DNA of 24,409 nt from a virus. Under the pieces are notes generated by a model. The model searched no databases. It was given only the letters and a program-made list of their open reading frames with translations, and was not told the origin of the DNA. Position numbers and translations under genes: made by a program. Numbering within the stretch: position 1 is the stretch's first letter; each line of letters opens with the position of its first letter. Positions 3,330-24,409 of this stretch are shown in pieces. The stretch spans positions 1 to 24,409 of IMG/VR virus record IMGVR_UViG_3300042892_004874; one strand, given 5' to 3'.

Positions 3330-3403
3330 GCCCTGATAGCTCAATCGGATAGAGCAACAGACTTCTAATCTGTAGGTTGTAGGTTCGATTCCTACTCAGG
3401 GCG
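3330..3403 (+). tRNA. tRNA-Arg (anticodon TCT)
   Basis: Full cloverleaf. Acceptor GCCCTGA/TCAGGGC, D stem GCTC/GAGC, anticodon stem ACAGA/TCTGT around loop CTTCTAA (anticodon 3364-3366 TCT), T stem GTAGG/CCTAC with loop TTCGATT, discriminator G. CCA is not encoded (CTAA follows). It decodes AGA, a codon usually rare in actinobacterial hosts. Confidence 0.97.
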
Positions 3404-3429
3404 CTAAACCGAAAGAACAGGAAAAACAA

Positions 3430-3642
3430 ATGAAACTTACACATAGTCAAGCACAGCAGTACGTAGGAAAGTACGTAAACATCAAGACAGATTACTGGAA
3501 TTTTATTGACGAGCGAGTCATTAAAGTTAGTGAACACGATGTTGTCACCGAGTATCATCACTGGCTTAAAACTCCAGAAGACGGCATTCTTCGGGAAAAT
3601 TGGATAGATATTTCTCGTATTGAATCAATCGAAGAGGCATAA
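3430..3642 (+). CDS. Small hypothetical protein
   Basis: A 70-residue protein, MKLTHSQAQQYVGKYVNI..., with an alternating beta pattern and an acidic end (ISRIESIEEA). It looks like a small beta-barrel-type fold, but no family is recognised. AGG at 3419-3421 is a weak ribosome binding site. It lies between tRNA-Arg and a zinc-ribbon protein gene, 14 nt before the latter, and is probably co-transcribed with them. Confidence 0.6.
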   Translation: MKLTHSQAQQYVGKYVNIKTDYWNFIDERVIKVSEHDVVTEYHHWLKTPEDGILRENWIDISRIESIEEA

Positions 3643-3656
3643 AAGTTTTTTGACTA

Positions 3657-4154
3657 ATGAAAAAACTAAATGGAAACCCAAAAGGTGAGCTCGCATCATG
3701 GTTGCGCCAAAACGAAGACATACCAGGCGTTTCTGAAGCTTTGGCTAAATACAAAAAGAAATTCAACTTTAGCGATGACGAGTTTAAACATGCTTCCTCA
3801 ATCAGGGAGATGGCCGAAATAAAAATGCAGCGCAACTATGGGTTTGTTAAACCAAAGCCCGGTCTCTATTACAAAGAGAGCTCACGAATCGTTTACCGCG
3901 TAGAGAAGAATGGCAATAGCTGTTCTTGGCGTCCTGCTACCCGTGACTGGTGGTCAAAGAGCGGTGACATGGTAAAACTCATGACCGATTACGGCATGGG
4001 TAAAACTGTCCTTCTTACGCAAGAGCTGGCGTCAAGGCTCGGATTGGAAGCTGGAATGTGCGTTGCATGCGGCAAAGCCTTGACCACAGCAAAAAGCAAA
4101 GAGCTAGGCATTGGGCCGACTTGTCTCAAATCAATTACTCAAACACATGACTAA
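3657..4154 (+). CDS. DUF6011-like zinc-ribbon protein
   Basis: A 165-residue protein. The C-terminus (residues about 133-160) has C135-x2-C138-G-K-A-L followed by KELGIGPTC156, which matches the pattern I associate with the DUF6011 family (C-x2-C-G-x-x-L ... G-x-G-P-x-C). That family is a small metal-binding module common in actinophages and of unknown function. The N-terminal 60 residues are helical and charged; the middle is beta-rich. The gene ends 6 nt before the CAT-anticodon tRNA. It holds one ACCCGT site (3939). The family call is from memory of the motif. Confidence 0.6.
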   Translation: MKKLNGNPKGELASWLRQNEDIPGVSEALAKYKKKFNFSDDEFKHASSIREMAEIKMQRNYGFVKPKPGLYYKESSRIVYRVEKNGNSCSWRPATRDWWSKSGDMVKLMTDYGMGKTVLLTQELASRLGLEAGMCVACGKALTTAKSKELGIGPTCLKSITQTHD

Positions 4155-4160
4155 ATACAG

Positions 4161-4234
4161 GCCCCTATAGCTCAGTTGGTTAGAGCAGGGGACTCATAAT
4201 CCCTTGGCCGCAGGTTCAAGTCCTGCTGGGGGCA
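4161..4234 (+). tRNA. tRNA with CAT anticodon, probably tRNA-Ile2 (AUA), possibly Met
   Basis: Acceptor GCCCCTA/TGGGGGC, D stem GCTC/GAGC, anticodon stem GGGGA/TCCCT with loop CTCATAA (anticodon CAT), T stem GCAGG/CCTGC, discriminator A, no encoded CCA. An automatic call would be Met. The variable and T regions (TTGGCCGC then GGTTCAAG) resemble bacterial tRNA-Ile2. Acceptor pairs C4-G69 and C5-G68, which I recall as recognised by the lysidine synthase TilS, are present. That favours an AUA-decoding tRNA. Confidence 0.9.
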
Positions 4235-4242
4235 CTAAAAAG

Positions 4243-4271
4243 TAGACAAAAACAAAAAGGACTGGTACGAT
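4243..4271 (+). promoter_or_regulatory. Candidate promoter for leaderless gene at 4278
   Basis: TAGACA (4243-4248), a 17-nt spacer and TACGAT (4266-4271). The ATG follows 6 nt later. The six bases in between are exactly one ACCCGT site, so that motif covers the predicted transcription start. AAGGA at 4256-4260 is too far (17 nt) to serve as a Shine-Dalgarno sequence. Confidence 0.5.
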
Positions 4272-4277
4272 ACCCGT

Positions 4278-4427
4278 ATGATTACACTTCAGTTACATCG
4301 CAAGAAAAAGATGGACATCATTGCTCACTCGTTGACCAAGTCCGGCATCCCTATTTGGAGCGGCATACCAGAACTCATCGTCAAGGACCTCAAAGATGCT
4401 GGTTATGTCATAAAGAAGAAGAAATGA
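4278..4427 (+). CDS. 49-residue basic protein
   Basis: Begins MITLQLHRKKKMDIIAHSLT and ends GYVIKKKK, with a lysine cluster at each end. It may bind nucleic acid, but no family is recognised. Its TGA overlaps the next ATG (ATGA), typical of a coupled operon, and a promoter-like pair of hexamers sits directly upstream. The short length means coding is inferred from the overlap and promoter spacing more than from homology. Confidence 0.5.
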   Translation: MITLQLHRKKKMDIIAHSLTKSGIPIWSGIPELIVKDLKDAGYVIKKKK

Positions 4428-4624
4428 CGCGGCAGAATTCACGCCCGGCGAAAGAAAAGAAAAACAAACGGCGATACGACCCCAGGACGAGCGATATACG
4501 TCCGAAAGCCGGTCCAGTAACTATACGTAAAGCAGACGGAACGACGGAACGACAACCGGCTAAACCTGGAACAAAATACGTAGATAAACCATACTCTTCT
4601 CCGCGTCCTAAAAACGTATCCTAA
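4424..4624 (+). CDS. 66-residue highly basic, disordered protein
   Basis: Starts at the ATG overlapping the previous stop (ATGA). The protein (MTRQNSRPAKEKKNKRRYDP...) is rich in Lys, Arg and Pro with almost no hydrophobic core, so it is likely disordered and nucleic-acid binding. It ends 4 nt before tRNA-Arg(CCT). A longer frame from 4355 exists but would cover most of the upstream gene. Confidence 0.5.
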   Translation: MTRQNSRPAKEKKNKRRYDPRTSDIRPKAGPVTIRKADGTTERQPAKPGTKYVDKPYSSPRPKNVS

Positions 4625-4628
4625 TCAG

Positions 4629-4704
4629 GCTCTCGTAGCTCAGCGGATAGAGCAACAGTTTCCTAAACTGTTGGCCGTAGGTTCGAGTCCTACCGAGAGC
4701 GCCA
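4629..4704 (+). tRNA. tRNA-Arg (anticodon CCT), CCA encoded
   Basis: Acceptor GCTCTCG/CGAGAGC, D stem GCTC/GAGC, anticodon stem ACAGT/ACTGT with loop TTCCTAA (anticodon CCT), T stem GTAGG/CCTAC, discriminator G4701, then CCA at 4702-4704. It decodes AGG. It is the only tRNA of the three whose CCA end is encoded. Confidence 0.97.
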
Positions 4705-4805: not shown

Positions 4806-4990
4806 AACTTGAAGACCTTGTGACTCTTCGCTGCTGTCGCGATTGGCCCATTCATGCATACGCAGTGTACGGTCAGCAAATTGGTCGATGTGGCATATGC
4901 AACAACAGACCATCTGTTGTATGGGAGATTTACCCAGAGGAGAAGTATGCCCGTAACCAAGCGGGCTACACCCCTCCTCTTGAGGTTTAA
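4796..4990 (+). CDS. Small hypothetical protein with Cys motif
   Basis: A 64-residue protein starting MEIELEDLVTLRCC. It contains adjacent cysteines (CC) and a later C-G-I-C, so it could bind a metal. I chose the ATG at 4796 over 4766 because it gives a short overlap with the upstream micropeptide. Its end overlaps the 3' end of the leftward ribonucleotide reductase gene by 4 nt (4987-4990), a tight convergent junction with no room for a terminator. Confidence 0.5.
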   Translation: MEIELEDLVTLRCCRDWPIHAYAVYGQQIGRCGICNNRPSVVWEIYPEEKYARNQAGYTPPLEV

Positions 4991-6912
4991 CGTACTGGAC
5001 AGGCTCCTGTAGAGCAGTCATCCAGGTCCAACATGCCACCCGTGGCTGCCTGTAGAGGAATTGTGAAGTCAATCTTTGACACGCTCTTCTCGTACTGCTC
5101 TTTGGTGATTTCCTCGTATGGAGGAAGTGGGAAGTTGTGGTCAGCATGAAGCAAGAACGACACGCTCTTTACGCTTGAGTCGTAGTTATCCGTGAGCCAT
5201 GCCTTGATAGATGGAAGCTCTTCCTTGCGGTAGTACACAGTTACAGAGACGGCGTTGTCAGCCCACTCTGTCTGCATCTTCTTGACCCACTCAAGCTGCT
5301 GTATTGCTGTCATCTCAGAGGCCAGTACTGAACCCGTAGGTGATTGGCAAGGGAACTCAACAACGTAACGAGTGTGGTCTTCACGTCCATCAATGCCAAT
5401 ATCCCACTGAACCTTGTATCCACGCTTGCGACATGCGTCTACAAGTGCGTCTGCTGCACCAAAGCGAACACGACGAGTGTAGTAAGGAGCGAACGCAGGG
5501 TGGATGCCAGGTGTTACGCCTGGGAGAAGCGACAGTGTTCCGGATGGTTGAACTGTCGTGAGGCGAACAGATGTAGGGAACCCGTGTTCCTTTGAGTATT
5601 CCTTGTCCAGTGCTTCTAGCTTCTTGTATGCAGGTGACAACCATGACACCTGCTCCTCTGTGCATTGGAGGATACCCGTGATGCTTTGGCCAAGACGTGC
5701 GTTTTTGCGAACGATGTCTGTGGTTTTGTCGTATGGGTAGTTCATGCGTGTAATGCTCTTCTGCACCATGTACAGAAGCTCTGATACTTCACAGAACTGC
5801 TCGTATGACTCGATGTTCGGCAGGAACAAGGTTGACAGGTTGCATGACTCGCCATCACCAAGACCAATCTCGGCACATGGGTTAAAGCCTTCGATGGTGT
5901 TGTCCACCTTGCGCTCACCAAGACGACCATATGTGCGAGCTAGGCGACGGTTGACGAGACCATATGGCTCTCCTGAACCATCGTACCCCTTCCACAGTTC
6001 TGGAAGAATCTCATCAAAGTGGTCAGCATAGATACTGTTGTTTGAGTTAGCTCTGTATGCAGGAACGTTACCCGTGGACCAATTCTTCGCACGAATGAAA
6101 AGAACATCATCAGGGTCGCCAATAGCAATCTGTGCGGAGCGGCGTGAAGAGCCAGATACTACGATTTTTCCGATGATGTTACATATGTCAAGCACATCAA
6201 TGCTGCGAAGCTTCTTGCCTTCTCGGTTCTTCATGACCTTGCAGATGTCTTCTATGCCATCAATCAGTGCGCCTGGTCCGGATGCTGTTCCTCCGAACGT
6301 CTTGAGTGGTGCACCAAACTCACGTACCAAGATGGTGGAGTACGAGAAAGACTTACCCGTGTCGAAATATGACTTCAACACGCTGTGCAAAAGACGACGC
6401 CAACCAGTTCGTGAGTCGGGAACAATAATGTCTGCGTCGTTAGAGCGTTCGTGTGTGATTGTCACGTTTGGCTTTATCTTTGGAAGCTCATGTATCTTTG
6501 AGCGTTCGACAGAGAAGCCAACACCTCCACCAAGCATGAGGTAGTCAAAGAGAAGCTCAAAGTCTTCTACTGATTCGATGTTTGTGAAATAGCAGTTGTT
6601 AAGTGATGTGCCGCTGAACTGCTTAACCAGAGGTGTGCCTAGTTGCCACAGTGCACGACCTGAGAGTGAGCAGCGTAGGTAGAACATGTGGTCAAACAGT
6701 TGTTCTGCTTGGGGCTGTGATAGTGGTGCACCAATCTCAATAGCTCCATCAATAGCCCGTACGATGGTTTCAATCCACGTCTCATTGCGATTAAGGCCTG
6801 CTACTGGGCGGCTGTAGGTGCGAAGGTAAACAACCTCTCCTAATCCACCAAACCCCCAAGGTACTTGCTTATTTTCGTAAGAGGAGATGAATTCTGGAGT
6901 AAAGATTGACAT
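4987..6912 (-). CDS. nrdJ: Class II (adenosylcobalamin) monomeric ribonucleoside-triphosphate reductase
   Basis: A 641-residue enzyme converting NTPs to dNTPs by a B12-generated thiyl radical. Every key residue of the Lactobacillus leichmannii type is present: C107 (NNCYFTN), the FNPCAEIG loop with thiyl C346 and E348, C357 eleven residues later (as C408/C419 in that enzyme), and a C-terminal shuttle pair C633-x4-C638 (CSTGACPVR) nine residues from the end. It is about 100 residues shorter than the 739-residue L. leichmannii enzyme. AGGA lies upstream of the ATG. A promoter lies at 6942-6970. The thioredoxin encoded at 2752-3072 probably reduces the C-terminal pair. It carries six ACCCGT sites, all on the strand opposite to its mRNA sense. 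Identification is very secure. Confidence 0.96.
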   Translation of the reverse strand: MSIFTPEFISSYENKQVPWGFGGLGEVVYLRTYSRPVAGLNRNETWIETIVRAIDGAIEIGAPLSQPQAEQLFDHMFYLRCSLSGRALWQLGTPLVKQFSGTSLNNCYFTNIESVEDFELLFDYLMLGGGVGFSVERSKIHELPKIKPNVTITHERSNDADIIVPDSRTGWRRLLHSVLKSYFDTGKSFSYSTILVREFGAPLKTFGGTASGPGALIDGIEDICKVMKNREGKKLRSIDVLDICNIIGKIVVSGSSRRSAQIAIGDPDDVLFIRAKNWSTGNVPAYRANSNNSIYADHFDEILPELWKGYDGSGEPYGLVNRRLARTYGRLGERKVDNTIEGFNPCAEIGLGDGESCNLSTLFLPNIESYEQFCEVSELLYMVQKSITRMNYPYDKTTDIVRKNARLGQSITGILQCTEEQVSWLSPAYKKLEALDKEYSKEHGFPTSVRLTTVQPSGTLSLLPGVTPGIHPAFAPYYTRRVRFGAADALVDACRKRGYKVQWDIGIDGREDHTRYVVEFPCQSPTGSVLASEMTAIQQLEWVKKMQTEWADNAVSVTVYYRKEELPSIKAWLTDNYDSSVKSVSFLLHADHNFPLPPYEEITKEQYEKSVSKIDFTIPLQAATGGMLDLDDCSTGACPVR

Positions 6913-15791: not shown

Positions 15792-16186
15792 TTGAACTCC
15801 GTCCATGTTTTGTCGCCGACGCCAAAATACTCGCGGGCGAATCCTGATTGAATAATATCAGTATTCAGGCATGCTGTTAGTGGGTCGGCTATGTCCTGTG
15901 AGCTATAGATTCTTGCGAGGATGCGTCCATATTTATCGTTCTTGTCTGGAATAGTATTTACGAATACCCACTTATGCCCAGAAAGCCAGTCTTTTGTGAA
16001 CTGTTTTGCTTTCAGTCCAAGAACTTTTTCTTCTTTGTTTGACGTTCTTGACTCTGGCGTATTGACGCCATAGAGACGTACTCTTATTTTATGGTGAATG
16101 TCAAAACCAAGGTCTATTCTTAGGTCAACAGTGTCGCCATCTACAACATTGAGAACTTCTGCTCCGTACCAAAATCTATCGCTCAT
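15788..16186 (-). CDS. Staphylococcal-nuclease-like (thermonuclease) protein
   Basis: A 132-residue SNase-fold protein. VVDGDTVDLRIDLGF (residues about 14-28), RVRLYGVNTPES (35-46) and DKYGRILARIY (82-92) match the calcium-binding aspartate, arginine and YGR motifs of the family. It would hydrolyse DNA or RNA. No signal peptide is present, so it is cytoplasmic or packaged. Its ATG shares one base with the stop of the upstream gene (TAATG), and its own stop overlaps the next start. Family very likely; the biological target is unknown. Confidence 0.85.
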   Translation of the reverse strand: MSDRFWYGAEVLNVVDGDTVDLRIDLGFDIHHKIRVRLYGVNTPESRTSNKEEKVLGLKAKQFTKDWLSGHKWVFVNTIPDKNDKYGRILARIYSSQDIADPLTACLNTDIIQSGFAREYFGVGDKTWTEFK

Positions 16187-16953
16187 TATTTGTCCTTTTT
16201 AGAGTTTTCGTATCGCTCAAGAAGTCTTCTACCCTTGGCTGCAAGCTCGGCTGCGTCTTGAGCATTTTGAGGAACAGGTTCACCCCATGCTGCCGCAGAG
16301 AGAGCAAGCCTTGTCGATTCACCCTTCTCATCCTTCATTGGTCCAGAAGGGTTTGTGAAAAATCGAGTCAGGAAAGAACCTTTCCTGCGCATTTTATCTG
16401 GTGTGTCGGCAGCGCCTTTAACTCCTGGTTTTAGGTTGGAGCCTTCTGTTCTTTTGAAGTGAGCTCTTCCTGCTGCTGTCAAGCCACCTTTAGGGTCTTT
16501 TAGCTTTGCAGACTTCTCTTTAAGTATTGGTCCACCGGTAACCCATGCTCTACAGGTTCTTTTTGAGGCGCATTTAAAGTCAAACGCTTCACAGTAACCG
16601 AGTTCGCCAGCAGAATCGATGGCTTCCCATTCGTCTTTTCTGTCTCCGCCTGTAAGTCCTTCAGAAATGCATTCTTTCATCTGTGGTGTGACTATAAATA
16701 CTGCACAGTTTCCACATCTTTGCTTCTTTGCCTCGGCAATACTGACGTCCCACTCCGTTGCTATGCTCAGCCAGTAGGCAGCATTGGTCTCTTCTGGATT
16801 AAGAGGTCCATAGGAGGCTGACTTGATTGCTTTACCCCTGTTGCGAAGGTTTACGGCTACGTCTTTTGTTGCCTTAGGGCAGGATTCTGCGGCTTTTTCT
16901 TCAAACTTAAACCCGGAGACCGAGCCTGTGTATGTTGACCATGTGTTTTCCAT
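16186..16953 (-). CDS. Cys-rich protein with DUF6321-like C-terminal domain
   Basis: A 255-residue protein. The N-terminus reads MENTWSTYTGSVSGFKFEEK, containing a short S-V-S-G peptide like that repeated in the giant gene. The middle (residues about 80-140) has C-G-N-C, then C, G-Y-C, K-C and T-C, a possible iron-sulfur or zinc site. The C-terminal 90 residues (KGGLTAAGRAHFKRTEGSNL, ADTPDKMRRKGSFLTRFFTN, ALSAAAWGEPVPQNA) match, as I recall them, the DUF6321 domain of phage proteins. I start at 16953 because GGGAG lies upstream; a longer frame to 17022 would run into a hairpin. It overlaps the nuclease start (TAATG). Confidence 0.7.
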   Translation of the reverse strand: MENTWSTYTGSVSGFKFEEKAAESCPKATKDVAVNLRNRGKAIKSASYGPLNPEETNAAYWLSIATEWDVSIAEAKKQRCGNCAVFIVTPQMKECISEGLTGGDRKDEWEAIDSAGELGYCEAFDFKCASKRTCRAWVTGGPILKEKSAKLKDPKGGLTAAGRAHFKRTEGSNLKPGVKGAADTPDKMRRKGSFLTRFFTNPSGPMKDEKGESTRLALSAAAWGEPVPQNAQDAAELAAKGRRLLERYENSKKDK

Positions 16954-17005
16954 ATAAACATTCTCCCATATCAATGAACTATTTAGAGCAATCTTGGTAA
17001 ACAAG

Positions 17006-17040
17006 AAATCCCCTGCCTTCAAAACAAGGACAGAGGATTT
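17006..17040 (-). terminator. Hairpin between two leftward genes
   Basis: AAATCCCCTGCCTT (17006-17019) pairs with AAGGACAGAGGATTT (17026-17040) with one bulge and one mismatch. It lies after the gene ending at 17083. The U-tract is short, so it may be a weak terminator or an RNA-processing hairpin. Confidence 0.5.
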
Positions 17041-17082: not shown

Positions 17083-17631
17083 TTAAATTGCATCTATGAT
17101 TAGATGAACCCGGTCATTTTCACCACGATTCTCGACACTGTGGTATTTATTGACGTTGTCTATAATCCAGATATGGCCCGCTTCTAGATTTCTGGATTCA
17201 TCACCAACGCTAAAAATACATCCCGTATTAGTTATGACTGGTACATGTATTCTGTGGGTCTTTTCTGTGAGCGGCCCTTTGTCCCTGTGTCTCGGTATGA
17301 CGATGCCAGCTCTCAAGTTAGTAAGCATCGCTTGTTGAACCTCGACTTCGCCTATCTTTTCTATTACAACCCCAATTACCTCGTCTATGTAAGCGCTAAA
17401 ACGTTCATAGTCTTTGTGCAGTATTCTCGAATTAATCCTGTGCTTTAGGTCGTATACCAAAGGTATTGTGTCCGTATTTTCTGCTGCTGCGCCGCCTGCT
17501 AATTTACGTTTTTTGTAGTCAAGCCAGTCTTTTTGCGTTAAAGACAGTACCTCATCAAGGAGTTCTTTGAACGATGGCATCTTTCCTACAAACAGAAACG
17601 AATCGTTTTCTTTCATATCTAATTTACCCAT
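17083..17631 (-). CDS. Asp/Asn beta-hydroxylase-like 2-oxoglutarate oxygenase
   Basis: A 182-residue protein resembling the aspartyl/asparaginyl beta-hydroxylase branch of 2-oxoglutarate/iron(II) oxygenases. It has the H115-x-D117 iron pair (IPRHRD), a HRIHVPVITNTG strand, a W-I-I-D-N turn, and the distal H164 (KYHSVENRGENDR) followed by R174 for 2-oxoglutarate. It would hydroxylate a protein or small-molecule side chain. The likely start is the ATG at 17631; an in-frame TTG at 17640 lies inside the terminator T-run. It sits between the capsid terminator and the DUF6321-like gene. Family likely; the substrate is unknown. Confidence 0.75.
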   Translation of the reverse strand: MGKLDMKENDSFLFVGKMPSFKELLDEVLSLTQKDWLDYKKRKLAGGAAAENTDTIPLVYDLKHRINSRILHKDYERFSAYIDEVIGVVIEKIGEVEVQQAMLTNLRAGIVIPRHRDKGPLTEKTHRIHVPVITNTGCIFSVGDESRNLEAGHIWIIDNVNKYHSVENRGENDRVHLIIDAI

Positions 17632-17638
17632 ATATGGC

Positions 17639-17675
17639 AAAAACCCCGCCCATCCCCGAAGGAACGAGCGGGGTT
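17639..17675 (-). terminator. Terminator downstream of the capsid gene
   Basis: Minus strand: AACCCCGC/GCGGGGTT arms (17668-17675 with 17642-17649) with an 18-nt loop, followed by a run of T (17639-17643). It lies 15 nt after the capsid stop and would end highly expressed late transcripts. Confidence 0.8.
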
Positions 17676-17689
17676 CCGCTTAGTAGTTA

Positions 17690-19027
17690 TTAGGCTTCTG
17701 GAGCGCTGTCGAAGGTAACCTTGACGAATGCTTCCGGACGCTTCACTGCGAGAGCGAGGCGCTGTTCAGCAAGAACCACGATTGCGTTGCGCACGAAGAA
17801 GTCTGCGTGCTGCTCGGAAATACGGATGCTTGCTTGTTCACGGTCGTACAACTGTGCGCCGGTGCCGAAGGCTCCGACAAGAGCTGTGCCCTCTGCAATT
17901 GCTGGTGTATCGATGATTGGCAAACGCCAGATTTTTGGTTCTCCACCCATTGCAACGGAAACCGCTACGAGGTATTGGCCATTGTCATCCTTGGTCAACT
18001 CAATGTCTTCCCAGTCGTTCGGGTGCATAACCACGCCTGTTGGCTCGTAGTATGACAGGAACGACAGTGTTGCGGCGCGACGAATCGCGTCTGCCTTACT
18101 GTCCAACACTGGCAACGCAGCGCCTTCTGACCAGCTATAGTCCTGAATTCCTGATGTCTGAAGAACACCTCTAAGGTTTTCTCCGTTGCCGTCACCGTTA
18201 AGAATCTGGTCGTCTTCGAGAAGACGAAGACCGTACATCAATTCGTTGTCGATAATGCTTCTGAGTTGTGGCTCGTCTGCAAGAACGTTACGGTGTGCTG
18301 CTTCCCAGTGTGCAAGTGTGCGTACTGGGGCTTGCTCACCAACGAACGTCATGCCCGATTGTGGCTTTGCACCAAATGCATTGCCAGTGCGCTCAGCAAC
18401 TGAACCCGCGTTGTTTGTAGCACCGCCGGCGCTTGTAAAACCAATCTGACGGAAGTATTCAATAACTGCTGCAGTAGTTGTGCGAGATGGGAACAAATCA
18501 CGAACACGCTTTGTACGTGTTGGTGGCAATACGATTGGGTCACGCTGGATTGTTCCGAAAGAACCTGGTGTACCAGTTGGCATTGCCGAGTAGACATCCT
18601 TTACACCATAGTTGGTCAGCGAAACGCCGGCCTGCCAAGGTGAAATCATGTTTGCACCGTTCTTGCCACCTTGAAGTGACTTGAACTCTGGTGAGTTAAC
18701 GAACATGTCGCCTATGCTCTTGAAGCCAAACTCGCGTGCTGCTGCGTGCATTGCAGATTCTGCGCTCTTGGCGTTGTACTCAACGGATACAGAAGAACCT
18801 TCTTCTGCGCCCCATGAGTCAACTGACTTCATTTGCTCAAGACCCTCGATGAGGCTCTTGATTTCACGGATATCCGACATGTTGCGGTCGAAAGCGGACT
18901 TCTGGTCAGTCGACACAATTACTGTGCCGTCTTCGACCTTGAACGCGTCAGCAATCTGCTTGTTCTCGGCCATTTTTGTTCTGAGTGCGGTTTGTAGTTC
19001 GCGTACTCTTGATTCGTCATAAGACAT
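17690..19027 (-). CDS. Major capsid protein, HK97 fold
   Basis: A 445-residue protein. Residues about 1-75 are a charged coiled coil (RELQTALRTKMAENKQI, SDIREIKSLIEGLEQMKSV), the delta/scaffold segment of HK97-type capsid precursors. The rest follows the fold: an N-arm, an E-loop region (VIEYFRQIGFTSAGGATNNA, VAERTGNAFGAKPQSGM), a P-domain helix (LRSIIDNELMYGLRLLEDDQ) with ILNGDGNGENLRG, and an A-domain with GVVMHPNDWEDI and VLAEQRLALAVKRPEAFVKV. AAAGGAG lies 8 nt before the ATG. It is the shell subunit, probably cleaved after the delta segment by a protease not in this window. It is downstream of the giant gene and the 55-residue gene on the same strand. Confidence 0.93.
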   Translation of the reverse strand: MSYDESRVRELQTALRTKMAENKQIADAFKVEDGTVIVSTDQKSAFDRNMSDIREIKSLIEGLEQMKSVDSWGAEEGSSVSVEYNAKSAESAMHAAAREFGFKSIGDMFVNSPEFKSLQGGKNGANMISPWQAGVSLTNYGVKDVYSAMPTGTPGSFGTIQRDPIVLPPTRTKRVRDLFPSRTTTAAVIEYFRQIGFTSAGGATNNAGSVAERTGNAFGAKPQSGMTFVGEQAPVRTLAHWEAAHRNVLADEPQLRSIIDNELMYGLRLLEDDQILNGDGNGENLRGVLQTSGIQDYSWSEGAALPVLDSKADAIRRAATLSFLSYYEPTGVVMHPNDWEDIELTKDDNGQYLVAVSVAMGGEPKIWRLPIIDTPAIAEGTALVGAFGTGAQLYDREQASIRISEQHADFFVRNAIVVLAEQRLALAVKRPEAFVKVTFDSAPEA

Positions 19028-19164: not shown

Positions 19165-19332
19165 TTAATTTGGAACAGATGGAGAAGTTCCTTCAGCGCG
19201 CATTTTTGCAACATCTGATGACAGTCTCCAATACAACTCAACATTTTCTGACGTCTCCTTAACACCGACATCAGAAAGTTCTTGATTACGCAGTACAGCT
19301 AGATAAATTTTTTCTACGTCTTTACCGTTCAT
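19165..19332 (-). CDS. 55-residue hypothetical protein between the giant gene and the capsid
   Basis: MNGKDVEKIYLAVLRNQELS continues to KMRAEGTSPSVPN. It is acidic and helical, with one clear amphipathic helix (YWRLSSDVAKMR). Its ATG shares one base with the stop codon of the giant gene (TAATG), so translation is coupled to it, which supports this short gene being real. Position suggests a small head-assembly helper, but no family is recognised. Confidence 0.65.
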   Translation of the reverse strand: MNGKDVEKIYLAVLRNQELSDVGVKETSENVELYWRLSSDVAKMRAEGTSPSVPN

Positions 19333-22300
19333 TAGTCCGCTTTTTTCTTTCTAGGTCTTGTAAATCTACCACTAGAATCAGCAAGACGATATTCTACTAA
19401 AGTCTTTAGTATGTCTCCCGGTTTAGAACCCTGTTCTCTTGCTATCTCAGTTACACTTTTTCCAGAATCGTAATCTTGAAGAAGTTTTTTATCGGAGCTA
19501 GGTATCCCATTAGGTATAAATATGGGTGATGTAGGCTCTTTCGGCACCACCACCGGTTTTGGTTTCGGCTTTTTTGGCACCACCACCGGTTTTGGTTTTG
19601 GCTCTTTCGGCACCACCACCGGTTTTGGTTTCGGCTCTTTTTTCTTTGGAGCACGAACCGTTCTCTCAACGGCATCAGATGTATCTATTGGTTTTTCAAG
19701 CCGCCATGCGCCGGGTTCTGGTCGTTCAGATTCCAGTGCATCCTGAGAGGCTCTTCGCTCTTCAATTATTTGACGAATTCTATCGTTGTTTCTTGTTTCG
19801 ACTTTAGGTTTTGTTTCGACTTTAGGTTTTGTTTCAATTTTAGGTTTTACTTGACGAGGTTTTGCTTGACGAGGTTTCTTTTTTCTTCTGTCAAAAAATC
19901 TTTGGTTGTTTTTCAATACCTTTCGTACTGTAGAGTGGTTCAAGCTCGACGCTTCAACGATTTCCTCTAAAGTGCTTCCGGAATCAAACATCTTTACTAT
20001 TTCGGAATTTCTTTTTTGTGCGTCAGCAGTAATTGTTCTGCTTATTTTTGTTTTTCGTGCCGCTCCTCCGTATTTTCTTAAAAGGTACACAGCTTGGTCT
20101 CTAGTTAACCCAAGCTCGTCTGCAATTTCTTGATAATTTTTTCCTAAATCAAAAAGTTTTATTACTTCGTCTCGCCGTTCAATGTTAAATATTGGGCCTC
20201 TTACTTTTTCTCCGCGCTTACGTGCAACTTTCAGAACCCCGCGAACGTTAGCTATAGGCATGCCTAATTCTTCTGCTATTTCTTTTGCCAACTTGCCGCT
20301 GTTATATTTTTCAATAATTTTCTTATTGCGCTCATCCATTGTGCGCGGCCTAGCCATTCTTCCAGAGACGCTTCCTCCATTTTCAGGCAAATTACGCACA
20401 AAATTATTAATAAAGGCTGCGCCTTCTTCGGAGTATCTTTGCTGTCTTAGGTCTACGTCATAGCGTTTAATCGCTTCTGCAACGAGTTTGCTAGCAATTC
20501 CTTGACGCTTTGAGTCCGGCGAGATGAAAACGTTCATATTGCCTTTTTTCTCAAGAGGGAGGTCCTGTGGATAGTGGTAGACAATCCCCTTTAATAATCC
20601 CTTGTCGTCTCTCCACAAAAGGCAGTCAACCCATTGTCCTGGCTGGAGACCGTTGCCTTCTCCTTTAAAGTAGGAAAGGCCAGGGGGTCCCTTTTTGTCA
20701 AACTGCTTAGCTTGACCCTTGAACGGCCACGGCATCCCATCAAGACTTTTTGTTACGTCTTTCCACGGCTTGCCTTTAAACGTTGGTGGTTTTTTTGCCC
20801 GTTCTTCGGCTGACCTATATGGCTTAAAGCCGTCAGATGGCATCGCCATTCTTCCAGAGACGCCACCGTTTTGTGCTGCCCAGATAAGCATGTCCATTGG
20901 AATTTTTGTTTCATTGAACTCGTCCATTGCGCCAGGGGTTTTACTAATTACGTCGCGCACCAGTTGCTTTTCTGTATCAGAAAGAGCATTCCATGAATTT
21001 TCTAATTCGTCATCCGTGACAAAGGCTTCTACTTCCCTCTTGGGCTGCGGCGCGGTTGGTCTATAACCCTTAAGGCTTGGGTCAATGACGGTTTCAGTTA
21101 CCGTCTTAAAGACGTGTGATTCAGACATTTTTCTTGCTTTTGCAATTTCGGCTACTGTCATCCCTTTTTCGTAATCGTCAAGGATGTCACCTTGCGCGCT
21201 GTCTCGCGGAACTCCTCTTTCAGCCATCTTGATATCTGGCCTTCCACCCTTTTTGACGGCCTGGTTTGCGTCATCAAAATCAGCATGCGCATACGCACGT
21301 ATATCTAGAACCTCTAGCTGGCCGCCCTTTTTCTTTCTAGCCAAGAGTGTTCTTGCGCCAGTTTCATTGTCCGCATCCCACATGTAGAACTCATCTGCAA
21401 AGTCTGCAACCTTGGGCATTGTGATTCTGTTTGTATTAATGACGGCAGGAACCAAGCTTGATGGGATGTTTCTTGGGTCGTTCTGCTGACGCTTTAAGCG
21501 GGCTGCCTCGAGCCGTGTTGGGGTAGCTACGTTGTAGTGGGCAACCACTTCGTAGCCATTGTCTCTTGCGGATTGCAACGTGCCAAAACCACTATTGAAT
21601 TGCCCTGTTGAGTCGTAAACAATATTGTGACCATCTTGCACCCCGCGCTGCAGAGCCATATCGGTAATTATTCTGCTCTCTTCGTGAACAGTATTGGCCC
21701 AATCGAGGTTTCCTGCGGCATGAAGAGCTCTAGCTTCTGGGATTAAGGTTTTAATTTCGTCGGCATCTAGGTGAAGTGAATCAGTAGGGCTAGGTATTCC
21801 GTTTAATCCGCTCTTTCTATCGGTAGATTTCCCAGAGCCAGGTGCGCCACCAACAGAAATAAAACGCTTTTTACCAGTACGTTTTTTGATGGCGTTTACT
21901 AGTGCGGAGACGATAGGCACGTACACCTCGTCATGTCTCCAGTCAACAATTTTAGTAGTTCCACCAAATGTAGCAGTGACCGCTACAAAAGGTTCGTTGG
22001 GTTGAGCTGCATACCAACTCATTGTTGAGCGTGGATTTGCCCTAGTCAAGAAGGAAGGGTCGTAGTCGCTAGGTAAAGAATCTGGGTCAAAACCAGAAAG
22101 GCGGTTTTCTAAAGTGTTGTCCAGGGGTGGCATCGATGACATTTTGCCCGATACTCCACCTCCTGCTGGATTATTTACTTTTTTTTTTGCTTCTCTTCTT
22201 TCAGCTGCAGCTTTTCTAGCAGCTAGCCTTTTTTTAGTCGCAGCCGGCGTACCCATCATTTTGTAATTAGTAACCTGCCTTGTGGACAAACCAAGTTTTT

Positions 22301-24409
22301 CAGCTATTTCAGGAGTCTTGAAACCCTGCATCTGTAAGTTTCTTACTTTTTGAATATTTTCTTCTGCTGCTTCAACTGTTCTGCCACGGACGTCGGGTAA
22401 ATCTATTCCCTGTTTCTTTGCTTGCGATATATATTGGTCTACTTGACCAAGGCTTAAACCAAGCTTGTCTGCTATTTCGCGATTTGTTTTTCCCTGTTTG
22501 CGCAGCTTGACAACATTCTTTATTTTTTTCTGAACTGCCGGGTTTTTTTTAGCCATTTTCCCGGAGACGCCATTCCAGTCTTCCCCGTTTAAGCCAATTG
22601 GGTTTTGTATAATTTCCCCATTTTGCGTGTTTGTGAAGTCACCATTTTTATCAATGTTCCATTTGTTTAGCAACTCAGGATTATTAACTTCTTCAAACGG
22701 TCTGCGTAGCATTGAATCTTGACCTGAATAATCGCGTATCCATTCGTTGCCGTTCCAAACATGCGGCTCACCATTTATAATTTTTTCATCACGATTCTTG
22801 GGGAGAACTCCAGAAGACATTCTTCCTGAAGCACCTGCATTAGCTATAAATGCTTCAAGTTCGTTTCCGGTTAAAGGCAAATAGAAGCCATCATCTATGT
22901 ATTTTTGCTGTCCTTCGTCTGTCCACACTTCATACTTATCCATAAGTTCAACAGGATTGCGATGGCGTGCCCATTCACTCTTGGGCCAAGAACGCCATGG
23001 ATATCCAATTTCATCTAAGTCATCTATAAGGTCACCATGCCGGCGAACCTTGTCTTTTGACATCCACAACTCTTTGCTTAATTCAGCGATGGCGTCGTTT
23101 ATTGCTTTTTCCGTATTATTAGTAGGAACTACGGGGTTACTGCTAAAAAATTCTCTTCTAAAGAGAAAGGCAGAATCTCTTTCTGCTTGTTCTAACCTCT
23201 TGCGTATATAAAAACCAGTAGCAAGGGTTAAGTTAGAATCTGCGTCAAAGTCGTCAAAAATAAATCCAGTAGTAGAATTTGCAATATTTTCACGCCTTGT
23301 TTTTACAGCGTCAAGAGCTTTTTTACGCAGTGTTTCCAAATCGTCCGTAGCGTATGAACGGAACTTTTTGTTAAATTCGTTAGCTTCTTTTGTGTTTTTA
23401 GCAAGAGAGTTAGTTATTTTTCCAGACACAGACATTGGGGTTTCTCTTCCCATGTCTCTTGTAAAAACCGGATTCATCCACTGTCTTGGCATGCTTTCAA
23501 GAACGTTATTTTTTCTTTGCCACTTGTTGGTATTTGTTGAAGAAGCTTTTTCTAGCTTGTCCATTGCTTTGTTTACCATATGCATTGCGCGGCGTGGTCC
23601 TATTTTGCGACGCTCTGCAAAATCTGTAATGCTTTCCCCGTCAGCTAGTCGTCTCATCATTCTTAGTTCACCAGTCGAAAGAACTGCGTCTCCGTACTCG
23701 GCAATTGTTGAGCGTAACGCAACTCTCGGAATTTGCCTACTTGAAGCAAGCCAACGGTCATACTTGTTTGCTCTTGATTCAACAAGGGATGGAGTTATTC
23801 CAAGAGACTGTGCTACAGATGTAGCACTTCTTCCTTCGTGATTGAGCATCATATAAATTAACTGGTCAGCCTTGTGCTGCTCAATATTGTCAATGTGCTT
23901 AGTCTTTGACATAAATTTACTAGGATTAGAATTTCTAACTGTTTCGAAAAGTTTGTCTTCATAAGCTTTGTATTTTGCTTCTGTCATGTTGAGCAATGAA
24001 GACATCTCTTCGATTGATGCTCCATCTAGTCTTCTCATCATGTTTGCTGTGTCTTGGCGTTTAAGTGGCGATTTATCAGATAGCAGGTTGCGATAAATTT
24101 TGTTTAAAGACGGCTCTCTATTTTCCAAAACAGACTGATATTTCTTTTGTATGTCAAATACTTCGTCTTGAGACACGCCAAATTTCTTAGCAGCGCGTGA
24201 TATTGACATTCTGTCATGTGCTGTAGCCATATATATAGCACGCTCTGTGTCTGATACTGGGTTTGATGAATTAGGAATATCGATTCCTAAAGACTTAAGA
24301 GCCTTGGTGACAGACTCGGCGGTCACGTATGGGTCTCTTTCGCGCAGTTTTGCTGTTATTTCATCAAGAGAGTCACCGTTGTTTGCAAGATACGCAGAGC
24401 GTCTAGTTA
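19332..24409 (-). CDS. Giant multidomain phage protein with HTH array, Zeta-toxin-like kinase and GNAT-like domain, 5' partial
   Basis: The frame runs off the right edge, so a GTG at 24326 is not the true start; at least 1691 codons are present. Numbered from that GTG: HTH units at about 36-66, 98-126, 158-193, 222-260, 603-636, 660-690, 1048-1078, 1337-1366, 1388-1418, 1443-1472 and 1615-1645, many with G-K-x-x-x-E-I-A-x-x-L-G. A Zeta-toxin-like P-loop kinase is at about 815-1000 (GAPGSGKS 827-834, HLDADE, HEES, VYDSTG). A GNAT-like acetyltransferase is at about 1230-1312 (RQGIA 1274-1278). There is a WNGNEW segment near 530. Six copies of V/A-S-G-R/K-M/I separate the modules. A Lys/Pro repeat region is at about 1565-1600. 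It lies directly upstream of the capsid gene, where portal-associated, protease or MuF-type ejected proteins usually are. The function as a whole is unknown; it may be a polyprotein. Confidence 0.85.
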   Translation of the reverse strand, partial: TRRSAYLANNGDSLDEITAKLRERDPYVTAESVTKALKSLGIDIPNSSNPVSDTERAIYMATAHDRMSISRAAKKFGVSQDEVFDIQKKYQSVLENREPSLNKIYRNLLSDKSPLKRQDTANMMRRLDGASIEEMSSLLNMTEAKYKAYEDKLFETVRNSNPSKFMSKTKHIDNIEQHKADQLIYMMLNHEGRSATSVAQSLGITPSLVESRANKYDRWLASSRQIPRVALRSTIAEYGDAVLSTGELRMMRRLADGESITDFAERRKIGPRRAMHMVNKAMDKLEKASSTNTNKWQRKNNVLESMPRQWMNPVFTRDMGRETPMSVSGKITNSLAKNTKEANEFNKKFRSYATDDLETLRKKALDAVKTRRENIANSTTGFIFDDFDADSNLTLATGFYIRKRLEQAERDSAFLFRREFFSSNPVVPTNNTEKAINDAIAELSKELWMSKDKVRRHGDLIDDLDEIGYPWRSWPKSEWARHRNPVELMDKYEVWTDEGQQKYIDDGFYLPLTGNELEAFIANAGASGRMSSGVLPKNRDEKIINGEPHVWNGNEWIRDYSGQDSMLRRPFEEVNNPELLNKWNIDKNGDFTNTQNGEIIQNPIGLNGEDWNGVSGKMAKKNPAVQKKIKNVVKLRKQGKTNREIADKLGLSLGQVDQYISQAKKQGIDLPDVRGRTVEAAEENIQKVRNLQMQGFKTPEIAEKLGLSTRQVTNYKMMGTPAATKKRLAARKAAAERREAKKKVNNPAGGGVSGKMSSMPPLDNTLENRLSGFDPDSLPSDYDPSFLTRANPRSTMSWYAAQPNEPFVAVTATFGGTTKIVDWRHDEVYVPIVSALVNAIKKRTGKKRFISVGGAPGSGKSTDRKSGLNGIPSPTDSLHLDADEIKTLIPEARALHAAGNLDWANTVHEESRIITDMALQRGVQDGHNIVYDSTGQFNSGFGTLQSARDNGYEVVAHYNVATPTRLEAARLKRQQNDPRNIPSSLVPAVINTNRITMPKVADFADEFYMWDADNETGARTLLARKKKGGQLEVLDIRAYAHADFDDANQAVKKGGRPDIKMAERGVPRDSAQGDILDDYEKGMTVAEIAKARKMSESHVFKTVTETVIDPSLKGYRPTAPQPKREVEAFVTDDELENSWNALSDTEKQLVRDVISKTPGAMDEFNETKIPMDMLIWAAQNGGVSGRMAMPSDGFKPYRSAEERAKKPPTFKGKPWKDVTKSLDGMPWPFKGQAKQFDKKGPPGLSYFKGEGNGLQPGQWVDCLLWRDDKGLLKGIVYHYPQDLPLEKKGNMNVFISPDSKRQGIASKLVAEAIKRYDVDLRQQRYSEEGAAFINNFVRNLPENGGSVSGRMARPRTMDERNKKIIEKYNSGKLAKEIAEELGMPIANVRGVLKVARKRGEKVRGPIFNIERRDEVIKLFDLGKNYQEIADELGLTRDQAVYLLRKYGGAARKTKISRTITADAQKRNSEIVKMFDSGSTLEEIVEASSLNHSTVRKVLKNNQRFFDRRKKKPRQAKPRQVKPKIETKPKVETKPKVETRNNDRIRQIIEERRASQDALESERPEPGAWRLEKPIDTSDAVERTVRAPKKKEPKPKPVVVPKEPKPKPVVVPKKPKPKPVVVPKEPTSPIFIPNGIPSSDKKLLQDYDSGKSVTEIAREQGSKPGDILKTLVEYRLADSSGRFTRPRKKKAD
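19534..19632 (-). repeat. Three 33-bp tandem repeats encoding an 11-residue Lys/Pro/Val unit
   Basis: Units at 19534-19566, 19567-19599 and 19600-19632 differ at only a few bases. Each encodes EPKPKPVVVPK or a close variant, giving a stiff proline-rich spacer near the C-terminus of the giant protein. Near identity at the DNA level indicates recent duplication. Just upstream in the protein, shorter K-P-K-V-E-T repeats occur. Confidence 0.9.
20355..23429 (-). repeat. Six dispersed copies of a V-S-G-[RK]-M linker peptide
   Basis: Copies, as minus-strand codons: 23415-23429 (VSGKI), 22818-22832 (ASGRM), 22554-22568 (VSGKM), 22140-22154 (VSGKM), 20847-20861 (VSGRM) and 20355-20369 (VSGRM). Most follow a Gly/Asn-rich stretch (GGGVSGKM, NGGVSGRM, GGSVSGRM). 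The codons differ between copies, so the peptide, not the DNA, is conserved. The C-terminus ends in a possible degenerate copy (SSGRFTRP). The copies fall between recognisable modules. Confidence 0.9.

Follow-up and report, generated by a model that had tools for sequence, protein, structure and literature searches.

The giant genes that lie between portal and capsid in a group of freshwater phages encode strings of disparate modules separated by a short recurrent peptide. The peptide differs in type from one phage lineage to the next, its copies fall between modules, whole cassettes have been exchanged at them, and the chains that carry it are linked to a prohead protease. Judging from sequence, we consider it probable that the peptide is a processing site cut by a lineage-matched phage protease, most likely S78, and on that reading the giant genes would be polyvalent cargo polyproteins.

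The giant gene of the window and its separator copies

The window, by which we mean the whole stretch of DNA analysed, is an IMG/VR contig, linear and 24,409 bases long, that ends within the giant gene and truncates it at its 5' end (Table 1). Read from a GTG codon the gene spans 19332-24326 on the minus strand and encodes 1664 aa; in the alternative reading of 1691 aa the frame stays open to the contig end at 24407. The orthologues in the nearest relatives have 3,464-3,937 aa, which makes it improbable that translation truly starts at the GTG. An earlier note, made from the letters of this DNA alone, had placed the gene next to the capsid and had referred to genes between portal and capsid. 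The first is seen in the window, where the major capsid gene adjoins it, and the second in the relatives, the window itself having no portal gene and no S78 prohead protease gene.

The same note had described six copies of V/A-S-G-R/K-M/I, encoded by different codons and lying between modules of different kind. Their positions proved exact and their number far above chance, with 6 copies of [VA]SG[RK][MI] in the window protein against 0.014 expected, and six or more in 0/20,000 residue shuffles; mixed codons for each peptide were likewise found. Searched alone with no preset pattern, the window protein gave VSG.M (4 copies) as its best word, no better than shuffles, so the relatives were needed to obtain the motif without a preset pattern. 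In them pattern-free words reached 16-17 copies (ISG.M), 19 copies (GLS.G) and 17-19 copies (R.SSG), whereas any word in shuffles reached at most 5-7.

As to the modules, Pfam confirmed the HTH blocks and the Zeta-like kinase. The GNAT assignment is weak (Acetyltransf_7 E 0.0026, below the cut-off), a Foldseek search with the low-confidence AlphaFold2 model of that segment giving GNAT proteins as top but non-significant matches, and the WNGNEW segment belongs to no known family. The suggestion of a MuF-type protein found no backing, as no MuF domain was among the Pfam matches of the window protein or its segments, which lack the N-terminus of the chain; in the relative G001 a MuF domain is fused to the portal. 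The whole window protein had no match among viral contigs and domain-level matches only by tblastn of phages, and a search with three segments for stand-alone homologues whose ends match single modules returned nothing useful.

Elsewhere the window holds three tRNA genes (Arg-tct, Met-cat and Arg-cct, 3330-4704), a B12-dependent ribonucleotide reductase (4987-6912), an aspartyl/asparaginyl beta-hydroxylase-like gene adjoining the capsid gene (17083-17640) and, downstream of the capsid, a stand-alone DUF6321 protein (16186-17022); the DUF6321 of G001 forms one fusion protein with the S78 protease.

Table 1 Parts of the giant window gene in chain order, and the capsid gene that follows it
Feature	Position	Strand	Residue from GTG (open frame)	Basis or remark
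Giant module-string gene	19332..24409	-		5' end cut by contig end, 1691 codons present
Segment 1 (incomplete), HTH / sigma-70 r4-like units	23430..24407	-		Pfam
Separator copy 1, VSGKI	23415..23429	-	300 (327)	aligns with ISGRM/ISGKM of relatives
Segment 2, mostly helical, no known family	22833..23429	-		homologous in G001, G002, G004
Separator copy 2, ASGRM	22818..22832	-	499 (526)	motif and alignment with relatives
Segment 3, WNGNEW, no known family	22569..22832	-		J-domain here in relatives
Separator copy 3, VSGKM	22554..22568	-	587 (614)	motif
Segment 4, two HTH units	22155..22568	-		HTH_23 E 5e-12, two stretches
Separator copy 4, VSGKM	22140..22154	-	725 (752)	motif and alignment with relatives
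Segment 5, Zeta-like kinase (21423-21884) and HTH	20862..22154	-		Zeta_toxin E 1e-19; homologous module in G001, G002, G004
Separator copy 5, VSGRM	20847..20861	-	1156 (1183)	motif and alignment with relatives
Segment 6, GNAT-like cassette (weak)	20370..20861	-		in G002 and G004, not G001
Separator copy 6, VSGRM	20355..20369	-	1320 (1347)	motif and alignment with relatives
Segment 7, HTH units and lysine/proline-rich repeat tail	19332..20369	-		Pfam and sequence
Degenerate C-terminal copy SSGRF (uncertain)	19362..19376	-		13 residues before C-terminus
HK97-fold major capsid protein, next gene downstream	17690..19027	-		Phage_capsid E 9e-43

Head modules and separator types of the relatives

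Relatives were collected through the window capsid, which gave 80 viral loci at 72-89% identity. In the head modules that were read through, the capsid is preceded by a portal of family PF04860, by the S78 prohead protease and by several giant genes, which encode 1,000-4,740 aa, the stretch from portal to capsid amounting to about 12,000 residues in G001, G002 and G004, and S78 was present in 23/26 records. One Actinomycetota metagenome-assembled genome includes a contig that encodes a capsid 89% identical to that of the window, and the ORF upstream of it carries ITGNM and ISGRM; this gives only a hint at the host of these phages. Cultured Gordonia and Brevibacterium myophages have a similar gene order, and the recurrent peptide is absent from the cultured relatives GMA6, Cantare, Chidiebere and DalanDe. 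The Gordonia phage DalanDe has S78 near the C-terminal end of a fused 1633-aa ORF (L104:14940-19841), the opposite polarity, and this ORF too contains no recurrent peptide. More distant Zeta-bearing relatives (L148-L155) showed no clear separator, SSGR occurring three or four times in L152-L154, not at clear module borders.

Most relatives carry one recurrent peptide of their own type, [IVL][ST]GxM, LTGA[MI], [LFM]SSG or STRS. With no pattern preset the top words were ISGRM in G001 (12 copies in four genes), ISG.M in G002 (17), STRS in G017 (31), GLSSG in G021 (18), RLSSG in G010 (15) and RFSSG in G016 (13). We grouped the phages accordingly into class A ([VIL][ST]GxM: G001, G002, G004, G005, G006 and the window, more weakly G009 and G012), class B ([LFM]SSG: G007, G010, G013-G016, G021, G022, G024 and G026, the motif count alone being barely above shuffles in the weaker G013 and G026), class C (STRS: G017) and class D (LTGA[MI]: L063 and L072), and no motif was found in G008, G011, G019 and G025, four lineages in which S78 is present. 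By pattern counts the types are mutually exclusive, each phage showing an excess of one and roughly chance numbers of the rest. The tabulation comprises about 280 copies (93 A, 146 B, 35 C and 9 D), spread over 2-5 genes per phage, and the S78 ORF itself carries copies in G001, G002, G006 and class B. G009 and G012 have one more giant gene on the downstream side of the capsid, again with the class A motif, which indicates that the motif follows the chains and not their position. Giant ORFs past the capsid with the class A peptide are found at L027:11602-17064 (1821 aa) and L047:12399-15914 (1172 aa), and the chains of the STRS phage G017 (L092/L093) contain pentapeptide-repeat domains besides Zeta and KTSC units.

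The copies are alike as peptides and diverse as DNA. All 15 RLSSG copies of G010 have different 15-mers, the 35 STRS copies of G017 have 30 different 12-mers, and both TCN and AGY serine codons are used. The separators are mostly about as diverse in codons as the gene at large, although less so at some class B serine positions, so selection acts on the separator peptide. A DNA-level repeat or recombination word is ruled out by this codon diversity. The motif letters are more conserved than their flanks, which are disorder-like from sequence, with few order-promoting residues in each of the four classes.

Module borders and the exchange of cassettes

That the copies lie between modules, as the earlier note had held, was borne out by the Pfam domain borders of the relatives, in which a peptide lying away from the borders would have spoken against the claim. 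Across the 12 proteins scanned 0/104 copies fell inside Pfam domain envelopes, where 14.5 were expected. The 4,740-residue ORF of G022 holds S78, sigma-70 r4, KTSC, UvrD, RNase_T and ArdC-N/MPTase units, all between copies, its ArdC-N beginning 9 residues past a separator copy; in G001 a J-domain begins 15 residues past a copy and the Zeta kinase is flanked by two. The outermost copies are in most cases at least 100 residues away from the chain ends. In an AlphaFold2 model of window residues 300-1400 (mean pLDDT 43) all six copies fall in the lowest blocks, which lends weak support to border placement.

When the window chain was aligned with those of G001, G002 and G004, whole cassettes were present or absent, with distances of 0-8 residues between a copy and each of the 8 edges. 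One module, some 295 residues long, occurs only in G002 and G004 among these four chains, the GNAT-like module is missing from G001, and where the relatives have a J-domain the window has, from copy 2 to copy 4, the WNGNEW segment and the double HTH. The strongest single observation concerns an exonuclease module that is homologous between motif classes (up to 56-58% identity) and is preceded in each phage by that phage's own peptide, which ties the peptide to the phage and not to the cargo: ISGRM in G001 and G002, ITGFM or ISGAM in G005 and G006, and RLSSG, RFSSG or RMSSG in G010, G016 and G022.

These cassette edges, together with the disorder-like flanks, are what a plain flexible linker or a recombination scar between cassettes, with no recognition in trans, would also leave behind. 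We regard that explanation as very improbable, since the copies are alike in peptide and not in DNA, the motif letters are conserved beyond their flanks, and one and the same module has different peptides in different lineages.

Candidate proteases and the fate of the chains

In all ten class B phages the chain begins with the S78 domain, fused in frame at its N-terminus, and what precedes the first copy includes the region with homology to the protease that stands alone in Gordonia phages. MPTase-PolyVal was found in 11/11 class B records searched (counting G020, a near copy of G022) and 0/12 others, but since class B is a single clade this match counts as one event. In G021 (L135, G021:C1:32900-45950) the S78-fused 2510-aa ORF stops 9 residues past a GLSSG copy and overlaps a 1104-aa ArdC/MPTase ORF that lies in the -1 frame, with an A7 run (AGA AAA AAA GGG TAA) at the overlap, possibly a programmed frameshift, or else an assembly error.

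Class A forms one clade, mostly with moderate support, in the trees built from S78, from portal and from three further head genes; since all of them group alike, they do not tell coevolution of the motif with S78 apart from coevolution with its neighbours. On the capsid tree class A as one clade is rejected (AU p 0.009), which makes the capsid an unlikely partner of the peptide. This conflict bears on the docking alternative, in which the chain, uncut, would be held in the head by binding of the peptide to a component of procapsid, portal or core. A short hydrophobic-Ser/Gly peptide, present in many copies per chain in a phage with an HK97-fold shell, would suit such a role, and encapsulin targeting peptides, which link cargo to an HK97-fold shell, are likewise short and Gly/Ser-rich (consensus SDGSLGIGSLKRS, PMC8346489). 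Encapsulin peptides are terminal, however, whereas the separators are internal, seldom terminal, and of a type that does not follow the capsid tree, and the STRS type has no hydrophobic residue. The earlier note had offered processing and docking as alternatives; placement and the capsid-tree conflict favour processing over capsid docking, so that the capsid is disfavoured as a partner. Docking to another head component, though possible, seems unlikely.

Processing is favoured by copies that lie between modules and seldom near free ends, by a prohead protease adjacent or fused to the chain, and by a giant-phage precedent, SPN3US, whose prohead protease gp245 cuts ejected head proteins at the short motif AXE (PMC10052503). 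Other results count against it. In the nine modules listed the motif is missing from capsid and portal alike, apart from a single, chance-level WSSG in the G021 capsid, and no cleavage site matching the lineage peptide was found in the capsid alignment, even though cutting of at least the capsid would be expected from a prohead protease. No motif could be found in four lineages that do have S78. The catalytic region of S78 shows good conservation from one motif class to another, so that a specificity change would have to rest on few residues, and the trees fail to separate S78 from portal and other head genes.

The comparison with SPN3US extends to a head protease linked with a short motif and to multiple sites in one propeptide. 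There, however, the 14 sites, which are spread over 9 proteins, lie mostly in N-terminal propeptides, and the proteins cut include capsid and portal (PMC10052503), whereas the copies described here separate folded modules, occur in neither capsid nor portal, and have their putative cleavage predicted from sequence. T4 internal proteins also have a short peptide tied to both the prohead protease and host-entering cargo, and within ten residues their capsid targeting sequences serve both for targeting and for processing by gp21 (PMC9026906), a precedent for separators that would serve as targeting sequences and also be cut. We think such a double role rather improbable, because the T4 sequences are single, N-terminal and on small proteins, and the separators are internal and repeated. 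The minor head protein of cyanophage PSS2 similarly holds a Zeta-like kinase module within a large head protein, but has 1,499 aa and no recurrent peptide.

By architecture the chains are polyvalent proteins (PMC5512222), large multidomain chains with disparate activities encoded near portal or terminase and built of ArdC-N, MPTase-PolyVal, GNAT, HTH and nuclease modules; several unrelated activities share one polypeptide both in the G022 ORF and in the window (HTH, Zeta and the weak GNAT). Iyer et al. (2017, PMC5512222) proposed that polyvalent proteins are packaged, injected and processed by proteolysis, through autoprocessing by zincin-like domains and with assemblin-like peptidases at the C-terminus. 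The chains described here differ in having a lineage-specific separator at module joints and S78 at the N-terminus. Our search for a description of such a separator covered open-access text, in which none was found, and so does not prove its absence from the literature.

Returning to the processing site, we infer cleavage, the identity of the protease, packaging and injection from this pattern of sequences. The chain would enter the procapsid, in class B lineages carried by the fused protease, and would be cut at ISGRM-, LTGAM-, LSSG- or STRS-type sites, and the freed DNA-binding proteins, kinases, nucleases, helicases and ArdC-like proteins would be ejected with the DNA. The earlier proposal of a cargo polyprotein fits the head anatomy and the protease fused to the chain in ten relatives, with cleavage and virion presence predicted. 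More tentatively, and with a little less than even confidence, we suggest that effector cassettes are swapped as whole modules and matured by a head-associated protease, that the peptide shifted between lineages with all its copies, and that the joint is a lineage-specific code for the head cargo that is accepted and released.

Should the peptide prove to be a processing site, the phages described here would use the viral polyprotein strategy inside a tailed-phage head, and the separator would let thousands of residues of uncharacterised head cargo be parsed into candidate effectors. A joint change in the specificity of a protease and of its many substrate sites would also become testable, since related phages carry four separator types, once on homologous modules.
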